Made by a program: the position numbers and the translations under genes. Below are positions 45,456 through 54,080 of a DNA stretch of 64,000 bases, piece after piece. The stretch covers positions 1 to 64,000 of the forward strand of contig JAIRYW010000008.1 of assembly GCA_031267645.1 (NCBI GenBank), in the 5' to 3' direction. This stretch comes from Propionibacteriaceae bacterium. GTDB taxonomy: Bacteria > Actinomycetota > Actinomycetes > Propionibacteriales > Propionibacteriaceae. A model generated the notes under the pieces. The model made no database searches, was not told the DNA's origin, and worked only from the letters and a program-made list of their open reading frames with translations. The number at the start of each line of letters is the position of its first letter. Position 1 is the stretch's first letter.

Positions 45456-47723
45456 TCAGGCGCCCGGCGGGACCAGGCCCAGGACGGCCGGGATGGGCGC
45501 CTGCCAGTTACGACGCAGAGCGGGCAGCCGGATGGAGAACTGACCCTCGACGGTCAACTCGTCGGACGGGCTGACCTGGCCCAAACGGGACAATTTGAGG
45601 TCGTGCTCGTTGGCCAGCTTGATCAGCTCGATCTCATCGCTGGGCTCGACCGAGACCAGGACCCGGCCCGAGGTCTCGGAGAAGAGGTTGAGGAAGGGGT
45701 CGCCGGGCAAGGCCACCTCGACGCCCAAGCCGTGGCGCAGGCAGGACTCGGCCAAGGCGATGGCCAAGCCGCCGTCGCTGAGGTCGTGGGCCGATACCAG
45801 CAGCTGACGGCGGGCGGCGGCCACGAAGAAGCTGGCCAAGCGGCGGTGCTGTTCCAAATCGACGGCTGGCGGCTCGCCGCCCAGGTGGCCGTGGACGACC
45901 TCGGCCCAAGCCGAGCCGGACAGCTCCTCGCGGGTGCGCCCGAGCAGGTAGACGGCGTGGCCGGCCTTGACGAAGCCGGACTTGATCCGCCAGGCCACAT
46001 TGTCGATGACGCCCAACATGCCGATGGTGGGGGTGGGCAGGATGGCCTGGTCACCAGTCTTGTTGTAGAACGACACATTGCCGCCGGTGACCGGCGTGCC
46101 GAGGGCCCGGCAGCCGTCCACCAAACCTCGGATGGCCTCCACGAACTGCCACATCACCTCGGGGTCCTCGGGCGAGCCGAAGTTGAGGCAGTCGGTCACG
46201 GCGACCGGTTCGGCCCCGGTGATGGCGACGTTGCGATAGGCCTCCAGCAAGGACAGCTGAGCCCCCCGGTAGGGATCGAGGTAGGTGAAGCGGGCGTTGC
46301 AGTCGGTCGACAAGGCGACTCCCAAGCCGCTGGCCTGGTCGATCCGCAACATGCCGGCGTCCTCGGGCTGGGCCAAGATCGAATTGCCGCGCACGAAGCG
46401 GTCGTATTGGTCGGTCACCCAGGAGACGTCGCACAGATTGGGCGATCCGAGCAGGCGCATCAGCTGTTCGGCCAGCTGGGCGCCGCTCTGGGGCCGGGGC
46501 AGATCCTCGGCCCGAGCCGCCCGCACCCGGTCGATCCAGTGCGGCCGGACGATCGGACGGTCGTAAGTCGGCCCCTCGTGGGCCACCGTCCTGGGGTCGA
46601 CGTCGACCACCCGCTCGCCGTGCCAGTCGATCAGCAGCCGGTCGCCCTCGATGACCTCGCCCACGACCGTGGCCAAGACGTCCCACTTGGCGCAGATGGC
46701 CATGAACATGGGCACGTCCTGAGGCCGCACCACCGCCATCATGCGCTCCTGCGACTCGCTCATCAGGATCTCTTCCGGCGCCAGGGTGGGGTCGCGCAGG
46801 GGCACGGCGTCGAGCCGAACGTGCATGCCGCCGGAGCCGGCGCTGGCCAGCTCGGAGGTGGCGCAGCTCAGCCCGGCGGCGCCGAAGTCTTGGATGCCGG
46901 TGATGAGGCCGGCCGCGAACAGCTCCAAGGTGCACTCGATCAGCAGCTTCTCCATGAAGGGGTCGCCGACCTGGACCGAGGGGCGCTTGGTCGGGCCGGA
47001 GGCCTCGAAGGTCTCGGAGGCCAGCACCGAGGCGCCGCCGATGCCGTCGCCGCCGGTGGTGGCGCCGTACAAAATGACCTTGTTACCGACCCCGCTGGCG
47101 TGGGCCAAGTGGATGTCGTCGTGCCGCATGACGCCGACGCACAGCGCGTTGACCAGCGGGTTGCCGGCGTAGGAGCGGTCGAAGACGACCTCGCCGCCCA
47201 GATTGGGCAGCCCCAGGCAGTTGCCGTAGCCGGAGACGCCGGCCACCACGCCGGTCATGACGCGGGCGGTGTCGGGGGCGTCGAGGGGGCCGAAACGGAG
47301 CGAGTCCATCACCGCCACCGGCCTGGCCCCCATGGCCAAGATGTCGCGCACGATGCCGCCGACGCCGGTGGCGGCGCCTTGGTAGGGCTCGACGTACGAG
47401 GGATGGTTGTGGGACTCGATCTTGAAGGTGACGGCCCAGCCGTGGCCGACGTCGACCACGCCGGCGTTCTCGCCGATGCCGGCCAGGAGGGGGCCGCGGG
47501 GGGTGGTCTGGGGCAGCTCGGAGAACTGCTTGAGATGGAGTTTGGAGGATTTGTACGAACAGTGCTCCGACCACATGACCGAGTACATGGCCAACTCGCA
47601 AGCGGTCGGCCGACGACGCAAGATGGCCCGGATGTTCTCGTACTCGTCGGCCTTGAGGCCCAACTCGGCCCAGGGCTGCGACGTGCTCGGAGTCACCTGG
47701 GCATGGGTCACCGTGTCTGCCAC
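45456..47723 (-). CDS. purL: FGAM synthase large subunit PurL
   Basis: About 755 residues, the small-type PurL that works with PurS and PurQ to convert FGAR, ATP and glutamine-derived ammonia to FGAM. It shows [12 protein letters not shown] (active-site His), [38 protein letters not shown] and [17 protein letters not shown] equivalents. The GTG at 47723 is preferred because TACAGT (47731-47736) lies 7 nt upstream; the GTG at 47732 overlaps that box. purQ and a PurS-containing fusion lie upstream, completing the enzyme. Confidence 0.93.
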
Positions 47724-47730
47724 GACTGAC

Positions 47731-47736
47731 ACTGTA
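47731..47736 (-). promoter_or_regulatory. -10 box of purL
   Basis: TACAGT on the minus strand, 7 nt before GTG 47723. It suggests purL has its own leaderless transcript in addition to any read-through from purQ. Confidence 0.4.
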
Positions 47737-47779: not shown

Positions 47780-48457
47780 TCAGACGGCCATGGCCACGTT
47801 CAGGAAGCGCTCCAGGCCGACGAAGAGGCGCCGCCCGTCGGTCGAGGCGCTGGTCAACGGATCGACGTTGTGCTCCGGGTGCGGCATCAAGCCGACCACA
47901 TTGCCCCGCCGGTTGGTCACTCCGGCGATGTCGTCGGTCGAGCCGTTGGGGTTGCCGACGTAACGGAAGACGACGCGGTCCTCGTCGTTGAGCCGGGCGA
48001 TGGTGTCGGCGTCGGCGGTGTAGTTGCCCTCGCCGTGCTTGACGACGATGTCGATCCGCTCGTCGCGCCGGAAATCGTTGGTCCAGACCGTGTCGGTCGA
48101 GCAGACCTGGAGCGATTGGTCGCGACAGACGAAGACACGCCCGGCGTTACGGATCAGGACGCCGGGCAGCAGGTGGGCCTCGCACAGGACCTGGAAACCG
48201 TTGCAGATGCCCAAGACGGGCAGGCCCAGGCCGGCCAGGCGGATGATCTCGGTCATGACCGGCGAGAAACGGGCGATGGCGCCGCCGCGCAGGTAGTCGC
48301 CGTAGGAGAAGCCGCCCGGCAGGATGACGGCGTCGACGTCGCTGACGGTGTCGCTGGCGTGCCACAGGGCCACCGGCTGGCCGCCGCAGAGACGGACCGC
48401 CCGGGCGGCGTCGACATCGTCCAGCGAGCCGGGGAAGGTCACCACTCCGACGCGCAT
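47780..48457 (-). CDS. purQ: FGAM synthase glutaminase subunit PurQ
   Basis: A 225-residue class I glutamine amidotransferase: [20 protein letters not shown], the nucleophile elbow [10 protein letters not shown] with catalytic Cys, and the His-Glu pair in [11 protein letters not shown]. It releases ammonia for PurL. The ATG at 48457 begins 3 nt after the purC-purS stop, so the two are tightly coupled. Confidence 0.95.
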
Positions 48458-48460
48458 GGC

Positions 48461-50617
48461 TCAGACCCCCTGGTCGGGCGTGGCGGGGTCGGCGGCGGGA
48501 TCGGGCTCAGCCGACGGACCGGCCGGGCTAGGGGCGGCCGCGGCCGGAGCCGGGGCCGCGGCGGCGGGCTGGACGCCGGCCAGGGAGACCATGGCGTCGG
48601 CCGTGGCCTTGAGCGCGCGCAGGGCCTCGGCCAGATCGTCGGATAAGGCCGACAGGGCGCCGCCGTTCAGCGGCGGCGGGCTGGCCGGGGCGGCCGGGGC
48701 CGACGGCACAGGAACCGGGGCAGCCGGCACAGAGGCCGGAGCCGGGGACGGGACCGCCGGCCCGGGAGCCGGGACGGCCGGTGGGACCGGGGCAGCCGGA
48801 TCGGCGGCCGGAGCCGCCGGAGCCGAGACCGGCTCGTCTGAAACCAGGACCGGCGCGGCCGAGGCCGGACTGACCGCCGCCGAAGCCGGACCGACCGGAG
48901 CCGAGGCCGGACTGACTGGAACCCAGGCCGGCGCGGCGGAGGCCGAAGCCGGACCGACAACAGCCGAGTCCGCCGGAGCCGAGACGGGGTCCAGGGACGG
49001 CGCGGCCGAGACGGGCGAGCCCGGGAACGGCGGCGGGGCGGGAGTCGGCCAAGCCGGGCCGGCTAAGACCGGATCGGCGGCTGGCTGGTCGGTCGCCGCG
49101 GCGGCCGGCGCCGCTTCGAAGGACGGGGTCGGGGCGGGGACGGACCACGGCCAGGCCGGGGCGGCCGGCGGACTGGTCGGAGCCGACGGCGGGTCGGCCG
49201 GGGACGCGGTCGGCCCGAACCGGTCCGACCAGGTCGGACCGTCCGGGGCCGGAGGAGCGGCCGGACGGGGCGGCGCCGAGCGGTCTGGGAGCGACCAGGC
49301 GGTGGACGACCCGGGGGCGGCGGACGGGGTCGACGGCGCGGCCGGCCAGACGGGCGGGGCGGACGGCAGCGCCAGCGGGGCCGGAGCCGGACCGGCCGGG
49401 ATGGGACCGGACGGAGCTGGATCGGACGGGGCGGGAGCGGATGGAGCGGCGGCCGCCGGATCGACCGCTGTGACGGTGAAGTTCTCGATCACGGTGTTGG
49501 CCAGCAGGGCTTCGGCCAAGCTGACGACCTGCTCCTGCAACTCCGGGCTGAACTCGGGCAGGGCGTCGATCTCGAAGCGCTTGCCTTGGCGGACCGAGAA
49601 GCCGTGGTGGCCCATCCGGGCCAAGGCCCCGGTGATGGCCTTGCCCTGCGGGTCGAGGATCTCGGGCTTGGGCATGACGTCGACCACGAAACGGCTCTGG
49701 GGCCGCGCCGGAGCCGGCGGGGCCGACTGGGCCAGGACCAGAGCCGACTGGGCCGGCCGGAAGCCGCGGCCGGTCAGGCGGGTGTAGGCCTCCAAGTAGC
49801 GGTCGCGGGTGGCTTGCACCACCATCCGGGGCAGGGGCGGCGCGGGCTGGTCCGAGGAACGGTCCCAGCCGGAGTCGTAAGCCAGCCAGTCACGCACGTA
49901 CTGTTTGTCGAAACTGGGGATCTGAGCCCCGGGATGGTACTGCGCGGCGTCCCAGAAGCGGGACGAGTCAGGGGTCAGGACCTCGTCCGCCAAGACGATG
50001 GAGCCGTCTGGGCGGCGACCGAACTCGAATTTGGTGTCGGCCAGGATGACGCCACGCTCGGCCGCGATGCGGGAGCCCCGGGCGAACAGGGCCAAGGTCA
50101 GGTCGCGCAGCTTGTGGGCCACCTGGGAGCCGACCAGGTCGACCAGTTGGTCGAAGCTGATGTTCTCGTCGTGCTGGCCCAGCGGGGCCTTGCGGGCGGG
50201 GGTGAAGATGGGCTCCGGCAGGCGGTCGGCGTGGCGCAGCCCGGCGGGCAGTTCAATGCCGGTGACCTGGCCGGTGGTTTGGTACTCGGCCCAACCGGAG
50301 CCGGTGATGTAGCCCCGCGCCACGCACTCGATCGGGATCATCTCCAGCCGCTCGCAGACCACCGCCCGGCCCACCACGTCGGGCGGCACCTCGGTCGAGA
50401 CGACATGGTTGGGACAGATGTCGAGCAATTGCTCCGACCACCAAACCGACAGCTGGGTCAAGACGGCGCCCTTGTCCGGGATCGGCGTCGACAGCACCTG
50501 GTCGAAGGCCGAGATGGCGTCGGTGGCGACTATCAAGACCTGGTTGGGGTCGGACAGGGCGTAGAGACGCCGAACCTTGCCCTCGTGGATGAGCGGCAGC
50601 GCTGCAGTCGAGATCAC
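48461..50617 (-). CDS. purC: PurC-PurS fusion with long Pro/Ala-rich tail
   Basis: A 718-residue single frame. Residues 1-287 are SAICAR synthetase (HEGKVRRLYAL, ATDAISAFDQ, ECVARGYITGSGW, ADTKFEFG, ADEVLTPDSSRFW), normal in length. A short Pro/Ala linker (288-308) leads to a complete PurS (309-385: FVVDVMPKPEILDPQGKAI, VRQGKRFEI, LLANTVIENFTV), the small subunit that bridges PurL and PurQ. Residues 386-718 are a low-complexity Pro/Ala/Ser tail with a likely helix near 650-680 (LSDDLAEALRALKATADAM). purQ starts 3 nt later and purL follows, so the order purC-purS-purQ-purL is conserved but the first two genes are fused. The GTG at 50617 has TAGACT 7 nt upstream. The tail has no known role. Confidence 0.9.
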   Translation of the reverse strand: MISTAALPLIHEGKVRRLYALSDPNQVLIVATDAISAFDQVLSTPIPDKGAVLTQLSVWWSEQLLDICPNHVVSTEVPPDVVGRAVVCERLEMIPIECVARGYITGSGWAEYQTTGQVTGIELPAGLRHADRLPEPIFTPARKAPLGQHDENISFDQLVDLVGSQVAHKLRDLTLALFARGSRIAAERGVILADTKFEFGRRPDGSIVLADEVLTPDSSRFWDAAQYHPGAQIPSFDKQYVRDWLAYDSGWDRSSDQPAPPLPRMVVQATRDRYLEAYTRLTGRGFRPAQSALVLAQSAPPAPARPQSRFVVDVMPKPEILDPQGKAITGALARMGHHGFSVRQGKRFEIDALPEFSPELQEQVVSLAEALLANTVIENFTVTAVDPAAAAPSAPAPSDPAPSGPIPAGPAPAPLALPSAPPVWPAAPSTPSAAPGSSTAWSLPDRSAPPRPAAPPAPDGPTWSDRFGPTASPADPPSAPTSPPAAPAWPWSVPAPTPSFEAAPAAAATDQPAADPVLAGPAWPTPAPPPFPGSPVSAAPSLDPVSAPADSAVVGPASASAAPAWVPVSPASAPVGPASAAVSPASAAPVLVSDEPVSAPAAPAADPAAPVPPAVPAPGPAVPSPAPASVPAAPVPVPSAPAAPASPPPLNGGALSALSDDLAEALRALKATADAMVSLAGVQPAAAAPAPAAAAPSPAGPSAEPDPAADPATPDQGV

Positions 50618-50706: not shown

Positions 50707-51357
50707 TCAGCCGACCACGATGACGTGCAGGGTACGGGGACCGTGCACGCCCTCGACGCGGCTCAACTCGATGTCGCTGGTGGCCGAGGGCCCCGAGATC
50801 CAAGTCACCGGCTGGTGCTGGCGCAAGGAGGGGGCCAAACGGGCCATGGCTTGGGGCACGTCGGTCACGATCTGGTCGGTCCCGATGACGCAGACGTGCA
50901 TGTCCGGCACCAAGGACAGCTCCCGCCGGCCCTGGTCGGCCCGGTGGTCGAGGGCGATGGTGCCGGTCTCGGCCATGCCGACGGCGGCGGCCGTGATGAC
51001 GGCTGAAATGTCGTTCAGACGCTGATGGCTCAACGGCGGGTCGTCCCGCTCCAACTCGATCCCGGCCGCCTCGGCCTGGGCCAGCCAGGCCGGTTCGATG
51101 CCGGCCGGCGCCACCAAACTGGTGGCTCCGGCCTGGGCCAGGACCTCGGCCACCAAGCCGGGCACCTCGGCCCAGTCGGCCGCCCGGACCACGGTGGCCT
51201 TGTAGTCGATGACACGGTCGATGAACAGTTGGACCGGTTCGGCCACGGCGGTGGCCTGGCCGTAACTCCAGTCCACCGGCACGTCCAGGACCGGATCGTC
51301 CTGGGTGACGTCGACCAGGCTGTTACGGATGCGGGCCAGAATCTCTGACTTGCTCAC
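50707..51357 (-). CDS. lutC: lactate utilization protein LutC
   Basis: A 216-residue LUD-domain protein with SKSEILARIRNSL at the start and AVGMAETGTIALDHRADQGRRELSLVPDMHVCVI at the core (given as ETGTIALDH and LVPDMHVCVI). It is the third subunit of the LutABC complex that oxidises L-lactate to pyruvate. The GTG at 51357 overlaps the lutB stop by 4 nt (GTGA), which fixes the start and excludes the longer frame to 51474. Confidence 0.9.
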   Translation of the reverse strand: MSKSEILARIRNSLVDVTQDDPVLDVPVDWSYGQATAVAEPVQLFIDRVIDYKATVVRAADWAEVPGLVAEVLAQAGATSLVAPAGIEPAWLAQAEAAGIELERDDPPLSHQRLNDISAVITAAAVGMAETGTIALDHRADQGRRELSLVPDMHVCVIGTDQIVTDVPQAMARLAPSLRQHQPVTWISGPSATSDIELSRVEGVHGPRTLHVIVVG

Positions 51358-52886
51358 GGTTGGGCCCCCTCGCCGGATCGGTTGGCAGTGAACGGATTGT
51401 CGGTGTGGCCGGACTTCCACCAGGCCCGGAAGGACTGGGCCGGCGGCAGCGGCAGGTCGCGGGCGTTGGTCCAAGCCGAACCCGGCCAGGGCATCGGCCC
51501 CAGCCGGTCTTTGCGCAGGATCCCGCGGGCCCGTCCAGCCAGTTCCTCGACCGCTCCGAAACGGGAGCCCCGGCTCATGATCCAGCCGCCCACCTTCATG
51601 ATCGCCCGCTCCAGCCCGATGTGCTTACGCTTGCGCTCGTCGACCACGCGATGGCGCATGTGGACCAGCAGCTCCGGGATCGGAATGCGGACCGGGCAGA
51701 CGTCGGCGCAGGCCCCGCACAGGCTGGAGGCGAAGGGCAGGGACTGGTCGATGGCGGAGGCGGTGCCCCGCAGCTGCGGAGTCAGGATGGCGCCGATGGG
51801 GCCGGGGTAGACCGAGCCGTAGGCATGGCCGCCGACCCGTTCGTAAACCGGACAGATGTTCATGCAAGCGGAGCAACGGATGCAACGTAGGGCCTGACGA
51901 CCGATCGGGTCGGCCAAGACCTTGGTGCGGCCGTTGTCGACCAGCACGACGTGGACCTCCTGCGGGCCGTCGCCGGGCGTGACGCCGGTCCACATCGAGG
52001 TGTACGGGTTCATCCGCTCGCCGGTCGAGGAACGGGGCAGCAGCTGCAGGAAGACCTCCAGGTCCTCCAGGGTCGGCACCGTCTTCTCGATGCCCACGAC
52101 CGAGATCAAGGTCTCGGGCAGGGTCAGGCACATGCGGCCGTTGCCCTCCGACTCCACCACCACCAGGGTGCCGTTGTCGGCCACGGCGAAGTTGGCCCCG
52201 GAGATGCCGACCTTGGCCCGCATGAACTTCTCACGCAGGTGGGCGCGGGCCGCGCCGGCTAGGTCGGGCGGATTGTCGGTCAGATCCTTGGGAGCCGCCC
52301 GACCGTACAACTTCATCTCTTGGAGGAAGATCTCCCGCACCTCGGAGCGGTTGCGGTGGATGGCCGGGACCAGGATGTGGCTGGGCCGGTCGTGGCCCAA
52401 CTGGACGATCAATTCGGCCAGGTCGGTCTCCCAGGCGGCGATGCCGGCCGCCTCCAAAGCCTCGTTCAGCTCGATCTCTTGGGTCACCATCGACTTGACC
52501 TTGACCACCTCGGAGACGCCCTTGGCCTTGACCAGCTCGACCACGATGCGGTTGGCCTCTCGGGCGTTCGACGCCCAGTGGACCTGGGCCCCGTTGGCGA
52601 CCAGATTGGCCTCCAGCTGTTCCAGGTAGGAGTCGAGGTGGCGGGCGGTGCGGTTCTTGATGGCCTCGCCGGCTTGGCGCAACTGCTCCCAGTTGGGCAG
52701 TTCCGACACCACCCGGACCCGCTTGGCCCGGATCGTGCCGGTGGCGTGGCGGAGGTTGGCCCGTAATTGAGAGTTGCCCAGATAGCGTTTGACCGACTTG
52801 GGGAACTTGGGGGTGTCGAGCAAGTCGCCGGCGGGCGGCGCCGGAGTCAGCCGCCGGGTCGGATGGGGCAGGGCGATGGTCGTCAT
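51354..52886 (-). CDS. lutB: lactate utilization iron-sulfur protein LutB
   Basis: A 510-residue protein. The N-terminal LUD domain contains VVKVKSMVTQEI and the GISGANFAVADNGTLVVVESEGN block. The C-terminal dicluster ferredoxin has CIRCSACMNICPVY and CGACADVCPVRIPI, eight Cys for two [4Fe-4S] clusters, followed by a helical tail. It passes electrons from lactate toward the chain. The ATG at 52886 starts 2 nt after the lutA stop. Confidence 0.92.
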   Translation of the reverse strand: MTTIALPHPTRRLTPAPPAGDLLDTPKFPKSVKRYLGNSQLRANLRHATGTIRAKRVRVVSELPNWEQLRQAGEAIKNRTARHLDSYLEQLEANLVANGAQVHWASNAREANRIVVELVKAKGVSEVVKVKSMVTQEIELNEALEAAGIAAWETDLAELIVQLGHDRPSHILVPAIHRNRSEVREIFLQEMKLYGRAAPKDLTDNPPDLAGAARAHLREKFMRAKVGISGANFAVADNGTLVVVESEGNGRMCLTLPETLISVVGIEKTVPTLEDLEVFLQLLPRSSTGERMNPYTSMWTGVTPGDGPQEVHVVLVDNGRTKVLADPIGRQALRCIRCSACMNICPVYERVGGHAYGSVYPGPIGAILTPQLRGTASAIDQSLPFASSLCGACADVCPVRIPIPELLVHMRHRVVDERKRKHIGLERAIMKVGGWIMSRGSRFGAVEELAGRARGILRKDRLGPMPWPGSAWTNARDLPLPPAQSFRAWWKSGHTDNPFTANRSGEGAQP

Positions 52887-52888
52887 GG

Positions 52889-53644
52889 TCACTCCTCGGG
52901 CTCGGTCGTGGCCAGGATCTCGGCCAGGTGGATGGTTTTGACTCCGCTGCGCCCGCGGCTGAGCACGCCGCCGATGTTCATCAGGCAAGCGTTGTCCGCC
53001 GCCACCAGGTATTCCGCGCCGGAGTTGGTGGCCTGGCGGGCCTTGGCTGTGGCCATGGCGGTCGACAGGTCGGGGTTCTTGATGGAGAAGGTGCCGCCGA
53101 AGCCGCAGCACTGGTCGGAGTCCTCCAAATTCAGCAAGGTCAAGCCCCTGACCTTGTTCAAGAGCCGATACGGCCGGTCGCCGATCTTGGCCACCCGGAC
53201 CGAGTGGCAGGTCGGGTGGTAGGTCACCTTGTGCGGGAAATAGGCCCCGACGTCCTCGACTTCGAGCACGTCGGTCAAGAACTCGGTGATGTCCCAGGTG
53301 CGGGCCACGACCGCTTCGACCTCGCGCCGCAGACCCTTGTCACGGGAGCTGGCGGCCAGCATCGGATGCTGCTCGCGGACCGAGCCGACGCAGGAGCCGG
53401 AGGGGGCCACGATGTGCTCGTACTTGCCGAAGGCCCGGACGTAAGCCCGGACCGAGCCCAGGGCCTCGCGGTAGTAGCCGGTGTTGGTGAACATCTGGCC
53501 GCAGCAGGTCTGGGCCGAGGGGAATTCGACCCGACAACCCAACCGCTCCAGCAGAGCCACCACCGCCTTGGGTGTGTTGGGGAACATCAGGTCGGAGATA
53601 CAGGTGGCGAATAACGCCACGGTTTTGTCTGAACTTGTGCTCAT
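52889..53644 (-). CDS. lutA: lactate utilization CCG-domain protein LutA
   Basis: A 251-residue protein with two Cys-rich CCG domains: SAQTCCGQMFTNTGYY and EDSDQCCGFGGTFSIKNP, the heterodisulfide-reductase-like cofactor-binding motifs. The N-terminus (VALFATCISDLMFPNTP) is typical of LutA/YkgE. It is the first gene of lutABC. A palindrome at 53737-53751 lies 93 nt upstream and may bind its regulator. The start ATG has GGAG nearby. Confidence 0.92.
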   Translation of the reverse strand: MSTSSDKTVALFATCISDLMFPNTPKAVVALLERLGCRVEFPSAQTCCGQMFTNTGYYREALGSVRAYVRAFGKYEHIVAPSGSCVGSVREQHPMLAASSRDKGLRREVEAVVARTWDITEFLTDVLEVEDVGAYFPHKVTYHPTCHSVRVAKIGDRPYRLLNKVRGLTLLNLEDSDQCCGFGGTFSIKNPDLSTAMATAKARQATNSGAEYLVAADNACLMNIGGVLSRGRSGVKTIHLAEILATTEPEE

Positions 53645-54080
53645 GAGACTCCAATCGGACCATGAGTCCGCCGAATGGACTTGATCAATGGTCGCGGCCG
53701 ACTTCTTTGTCTTCCACCGTTCAGCCTAGATGGTAGACCTGTCGAACAGGTGGTCCAGTCTGACTTATGTCGGTGACTTGGTTAAGGCCAGGCGGACGGG
53801 ATCGAGCGGCGGCCCCAGACCGGCCGAAGGCTGGTCTCGACGGACGGGCCGCGTCGGTCGGGCCGACCAGCGGGCGGACGGTTGACGGCCCCAGACGGCC
53901 GGTCGACTGTGACCGGGCCTGAGCCCGAGTGAGCCTGGCCACGGGTCCCGATCCGTCGCCGACCGCATCACGGACAGGTGCCCCGGCTCGCTTACACCAT
54001 ACGTCCTGAGACCAGAGCCGGACAGGGGGCGGGCGGGCGGAATGGGCGCACGTCGGACGAGGGGGCGGGCCGTCGAAAGG
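53645..54080. other. 436-bp upstream region of lutA
   Basis: This region contains the candidate operator at 53737-53751 and otherwise GC-rich sequence with no convincing ORF on either strand. Short frames inside it are rich in Arg, Pro and Gly and look like composition artefacts. Confidence 0.4.
53737..53751. promoter_or_regulatory. candidate operator of lutABC
   Basis: A perfect palindrome, ACCTGT-CGA-ACAGGT, 93 nt upstream of lutA, inside a wider TGGTAGACCTG ... AGGTGGTCC symmetry. GntR-type regulators often control lut operons and bind GGT/ACC-containing palindromes, but no such regulator gene lies next to lutABC here. Confidence 0.5.

Follow-up and report, generated by a model that had tools for sequence, protein, structure and literature searches.

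The PurC (SAICAR synthetase) and PurS domains of the Propionibacteriaceae genome analyzed here are encoded by one gene, a single 718-codon frame at 48461–50617 on the minus strand of the window (the whole stretch of 64,000 nucleotides), with a GTG start and its sole stop at the end. Sequence comparisons indicate that the PurC–PurS fusion is a real and recurrent domain fusion within one family and that the long tail following PurS is lineage-specific, the interesting part of this tail being a constrained helix and not its low-complexity sequence.

Table 1. Features of the fusion gene and of the two pur genes that follow it, in window positions; residues are numbered along the 718-residue product.
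Feature	Position	Strand	Evidence or remark
PurC (SAICAR synthetase) domain, residues 1–287	49757..50617	-	GTG start at 50617; PF01259, PRK13961
Interdomain linker, residues 288–308	49694..49756	-	No domain match; pLDDT <50 at 292–302
PurS domain, residues 309–385	49463..49693	-	PF02700, 1.1e-19; only PurS of the genome
Pro/Ala/Ser-rich disordered spacer, residues 386–650	48668..49462	-	pLDDT mostly <50; length and composition differ among relatives
Conserved amphipathic helix element, residues 651–681 (NGGALSALSDDLAEALRALKATADAMVSLAG)	48575..48667	-	Invariant columns, AlphaFold, pN/pS
C-terminal low-complexity extension, residues 682–718	48464..48574	-	pLDDT <50 over 686–718; unconserved
purQ, next gene	47780..48457	-	GATase_5, 1.8e-30; ATG 3 nt past the stop of the fusion
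purL (small form), tail-less, expected PurS partner	45456..47732	-	AIRS, AIRS_C, FGAR-AT_linker

The PurC domain is recognized by the Pfam family SAICAR_synt (PF01259) at residues 10–255, with 250.7 bits against a cut-off of 20 (2e-74), and by the NCBIfam model PRK13961 (purC), with 391 bits against a cut-off of 251. Its best relative of solved structure is the PurC of M. abscessus, with 53% identity over 289 columns and a fold TMt of 0.90. PurS is found at residues 311–383, where PF02700 gives 70.9 bits against a cut-off of 22.2 (1.1e-19), and just misses two NCBIfam equivalog models, PRK05974 (72.5 vs 75 bits) and TIGR00302 (36.5 vs 39 bits). Because the genome has no other PurS, and an equivalog cut-off is a naming threshold and not a structural feature, the domain is taken to be a slightly divergent PurS. 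The genome holds one PurC and one PurS, both within the fusion gene, with a small PurL and a PurQ adjoining. Near the PurS boundary, the sole in-frame start codons, GTG311 and ATG315, fall within the domain and have no Shine-Dalgarno-like sequence; hence a separately started PurS is unlikely, no plausible internal start having been found. The 718-residue translation, the two Pfam matches and the spacing to the purQ ATG thus bear out the preliminary description, which reported complete PurC and PurS domains in one frame, neither a stop nor a ribosome site between them, and a tail that stops 3 nt short of purQ. No single chain in the PDB matches both, and a search of openly available literature found no publication on a PurC–PurS fusion. 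Directly upstream of the fusion (50707–53663, minus strand) lie three genes that, judged from reading the frames, resemble a lactate-utilisation LutABC set.

The fusion with a long tail is shared by five genomes of one genus clade (that of the window, L032, L034, L035 and L036; in L034 up to the contig end), whose genes form one clade with support of 100/100 in a tree of PurC, PurS and PurQ, beside a clade of species with separate PurS. Another genome of the genus (L033) is fused with a tail of only 20 residues, and fused PurC–PurS was read directly in several further Propionibacteriaceae genera, including isolates (Acidipropionibacterium jensenii DSM 20535), mostly tail-less. On whether related genomes have the same fusion, a point raised in the preliminary description, the answer is hence yes, with four other long-tailed cases and recurrence in the family, so that it is not unique to this genome. 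Linkers between the two domains measure 12–110 residues among the fused relatives, and the fusion state changes at least seven times on the tree, a count in which gains and losses are not distinguished. The genes purC and purS are separate yet adjacent in nine relatives (L040–L047 and L050), and this adjacency, in the same order, is common among the genomes compared, which makes it a likely precursor; the gene order thus suggests that the fusion probably arose when the neighbouring purC and purS lost the stop that divided them. The tail, like its helix, probably originated once, within a single lineage of the genus.

When 297 genomes from across the class were sampled, only this genome and a second member of the family gave a match to both domains uninterrupted by a stop. 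In G097, G150, G200, G090 and G196, PurS also lies within long open frames, but the DNA read there shows no fusion to PurC. A fused PurC–PurS with a different tail occurs in L152 and L153, which belong to another genus of the family and sit on a long tree branch (1.26); this tail has 61–76 residues, abounds in His and Asp (DDDDDHDHDHDHEDHDHDHDHEDHEH...) and looks metal-binding. As for purL, it was not found in the sequence available after purQ in L032 and L035, unlike in the window and L036, and its position may differ within the tailed clade.

The tail itself comprises 333 residues and is rich in Pro, Ala and Ser. Apart from the fusion, no frame of at least 200 residues in the window reaches 45% Pro plus Ala over 100 residues, and PurQ, PurL and PurB of the window carry no such tail. 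Among relatives, its length is 355 residues in L032, 158 in L035, 213 in L036 and at least 86 in L034 (to the contig end), and its make-up, Pro/Ala/Ser-rich in the window and L036, is Gly/Ser/Thr/Asp-rich in L032; the tail DNA is packed with imperfect GC-rich repeats. Conservation of the tail in length and composition, which the preliminary description proposed to check, is therefore not observed: both vary and the helix alone is kept. Such drift fits a spacer. Polymers of the Pro/Ala/Ser and Gly/Ser/Thr type, uncharged and highly solvated, serve as flexible linkers, and the spacer resembles them.

The conserved part is the 31-residue segment 651–681, which shows 19 invariant columns in an alignment of four genomes spanning the deepest split of the tailed clade, across which the flanks hardly align; as only four tails are complete and those of the window and L036 are close, this amounts to about two to three independent comparisons. 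AlphaFold, from an input alignment that contained no relative bearing this tail, predicts a helix at 652–679 with pLDDT of about 85, while the rest of the tail is mostly below 50 and the spacer has no confident placement. The hydrophobic moment of the segment peaks near 100–103 degrees, as is typical of an alpha helix, and shuffles reach it rarely (0.0016–0.011); the concentration of conserved positions on one helix face is not significant (p 0.08). Between the window and L036, the helix has 9 synonymous and 2 nonsynonymous codon differences and the tail on either side of it 47 synonymous and 56 nonsynonymous (Fisher p 0.028), with pN/pS values of 0.079 for the helix, 0.43–0.53 for the tail flanks, 0.12 for PurC and 0.30 for PurS. 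These values argue that the helix is under purifying selection in this closest pair. In the deep comparisons the pN/pS of the helix, computed over few codons, is not low (0.39–1.24), silent sites there having probably approached saturation or being limited by GC content, hence the case for selection rests on the near pair together with amino-acid conservation.

A profile of the helix, run against 40 genomes, matches the PurC–PurS tail only (in G000, G007, G012 and G017), with nothing beyond weak matches elsewhere (E ≥ 0.004). The same helix on other purine enzymes, which would be one possible way to build a metabolon, was not found by this profile, and the helix matches no known domain or structure in Pfam or the PDB. 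The low-complexity tail of 333 residues given in the preliminary description consequently holds for most of its length, residues about 651–681 being the exception, and the suggestion that the disordered tail drives clustering is now less supported, since length (158–355) and composition drift freely and the conserved part is the helix near the end.

The explanation we favour, with confidence somewhat above even, is that PurC is carried covalently by the PurS dimer of FGAM synthase, together with a binding or oligomerising helix tethered on a flexible (entropic) spacer. PurS is dimeric, and PurL, PurQ and PurS associate as 1:1:2 (PMC10912719, PMC3815217). If PurS still docks on PurL and PurQ, each PurL-PurQ-(PurS)2 complex would bear two PurC domains and two flexible arms, with the helix near the end of each arm; the physical link between PurC and this complex that the preliminary description put forward is implied by the domain anatomy under the same proviso. 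The disordered stretch, of about 100–300 residues, would act as flexible spacer, and the conserved Leu/Ala helix as a short binding element, or "sticky end", which could pair with its counterpart in a second chain, so joining complexes into larger assemblies, or dock on a different protein, a further purine enzyme being the most plausible partner. Because FGAM synthesis and SAICAR synthesis do not follow one another directly, the fusion need not mean direct channelling between the sites; the more modest reading is that the pathway is locally enriched. Speaking against our explanation, tail-less fusions are common, so the tail is dispensable to the fused enzyme elsewhere.

A bolder proposal, which we find rather improbable, takes the helix as a newly arisen, lineage-specific assembly module whose homotypic pairing would cross-link PurC-carrying FGAM synthase complexes into a hard-wired bacterial purine metabolon. 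The question whether bacteria form a purine metabolon at all has been debated largely on weak interaction data; PurL was at one time put forward as the scaffold, and PurC was subsequently seen to be central. In E. coli, a two-hybrid map of purine enzymes shows PurC as a central interactant, and PAICS, which includes PurC, is assigned to the centre of the mammalian purinosome (PMC10912719).

Both the fusion and its tail could instead be neutral, in which case loss of a stop would have joined co-transcribed genes, GC-rich drift would have made a long, mostly uncharged disordered extension, and the helix would be a harmless by-product. The repeated changes of fusion state in the family, the many lengths of linkers and tails, the His/Asp-rich tail of another genus included, and the repeats that fill the tail DNA all agree with this. 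Drift, however, is not expected to keep a 28-residue helix in a tail that otherwise changes composition, and the persistence of the helix across the deepest split of the clade, as well as its purifying selection in the closest pair, make a wholly neutral origin unlikely, with a chance that is still appreciable.

The helix might also fold back onto the PurC or PurS domain of its own chain and regulate it intramolecularly, with the spacer serving only for reach. Tethering implies a high local concentration near the domains of the same chain, and the apolar residues of the helix are conserved, but the range of spacer lengths, from about 100 to 300 residues, and the lack of confidence with which AlphaFold places the spacer render such a role decidedly improbable.

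Far less probable still is that the helix represents an encapsulation peptide sending PurC–PurS into a bacterial microcompartment (BMC). The genome does contain a Pdu-type shell locus, shell genes are present in G000, G007 and G017, and such peptides are short amphipathic helices on Pro/Ala-rich linkers, as on diol dehydratase-like subunits here. However, G012 (88% complete) has the helix and no shell gene was found in it, while G001 and G008 have shells and no helix; the native peptides are N-terminal and do not resemble the tail helix, which ends 37 residues from the end, the helix profile matches nothing else in the genome, and there is no obvious reason to make purines within a Pdu shell. 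This identity was therefore rejected on distribution and sequence. The Pdu-type locus is found on contigs C58 (L173) and C21 (L174) of G000 and its diol dehydratase-like subunits carry N-terminal encapsulation peptides and Pro/Ala-rich linkers. Beside it (L173:7518–13718) lies a surface-protein-like frame of 2066 residues with repeated domains and a C-terminal end resembling a membrane anchor, adjoined by a small gene that reads as sortase-like.

An assembly or frameshift artefact, which the preliminary description had raised and for which the 76 contigs of the genome assembly could speak, has a practically negligible chance, since five clade genomes share the architecture, isolates such as A. 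jensenii DSM 20535 have the plain fusion, and the frame is intact in all of them.

In the usual actinobacterial pur cluster, with free PurS and adjacent purC, the same two domains follow the same order, purC-purS-purQ, whereas here they form one chain with a linker, a long disordered tail and a helix. The tail-less fusions of the family (A. jensenii, L059) have the same fusion in the same order, but they lack spacer and helix, their PurS stops 4–7 residues short of the stop, and their tree position is separate. Animal PAICS (PurC–PurE) likewise joins PurC to another purine enzyme, and its multi-copy core has been reported at the centre of the purinosome. It differs from the fusion of the window in that the partner is PurE, which acts in a neighbouring step, and not PurS, and in having no disordered tail with a helix. 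In large PurL, the single-chain FGAM synthase, a PurS-like domain also has a covalent link to further pathway domains; large PurL joins PurS-like, PurL and PurQ domains, whereas the fusion of the window joins PurS to PurC and leaves PurL and PurQ separate.

The covalent PurC–PurS link, recurrent in one family, unites in one chain the two proposed hubs named above. As far as can be judged from sequence, the joined chain with its long tail and helix, present in a single lineage of gut-type propionibacteria, may hold several purine enzymes together. The tail, in which a short helix is constrained while the disordered sequence around it drifts freely, is useful for understanding how binding elements arise, and the fusion offers a clean, testable system for whether bacteria assemble their purine enzymes into a metabolon.
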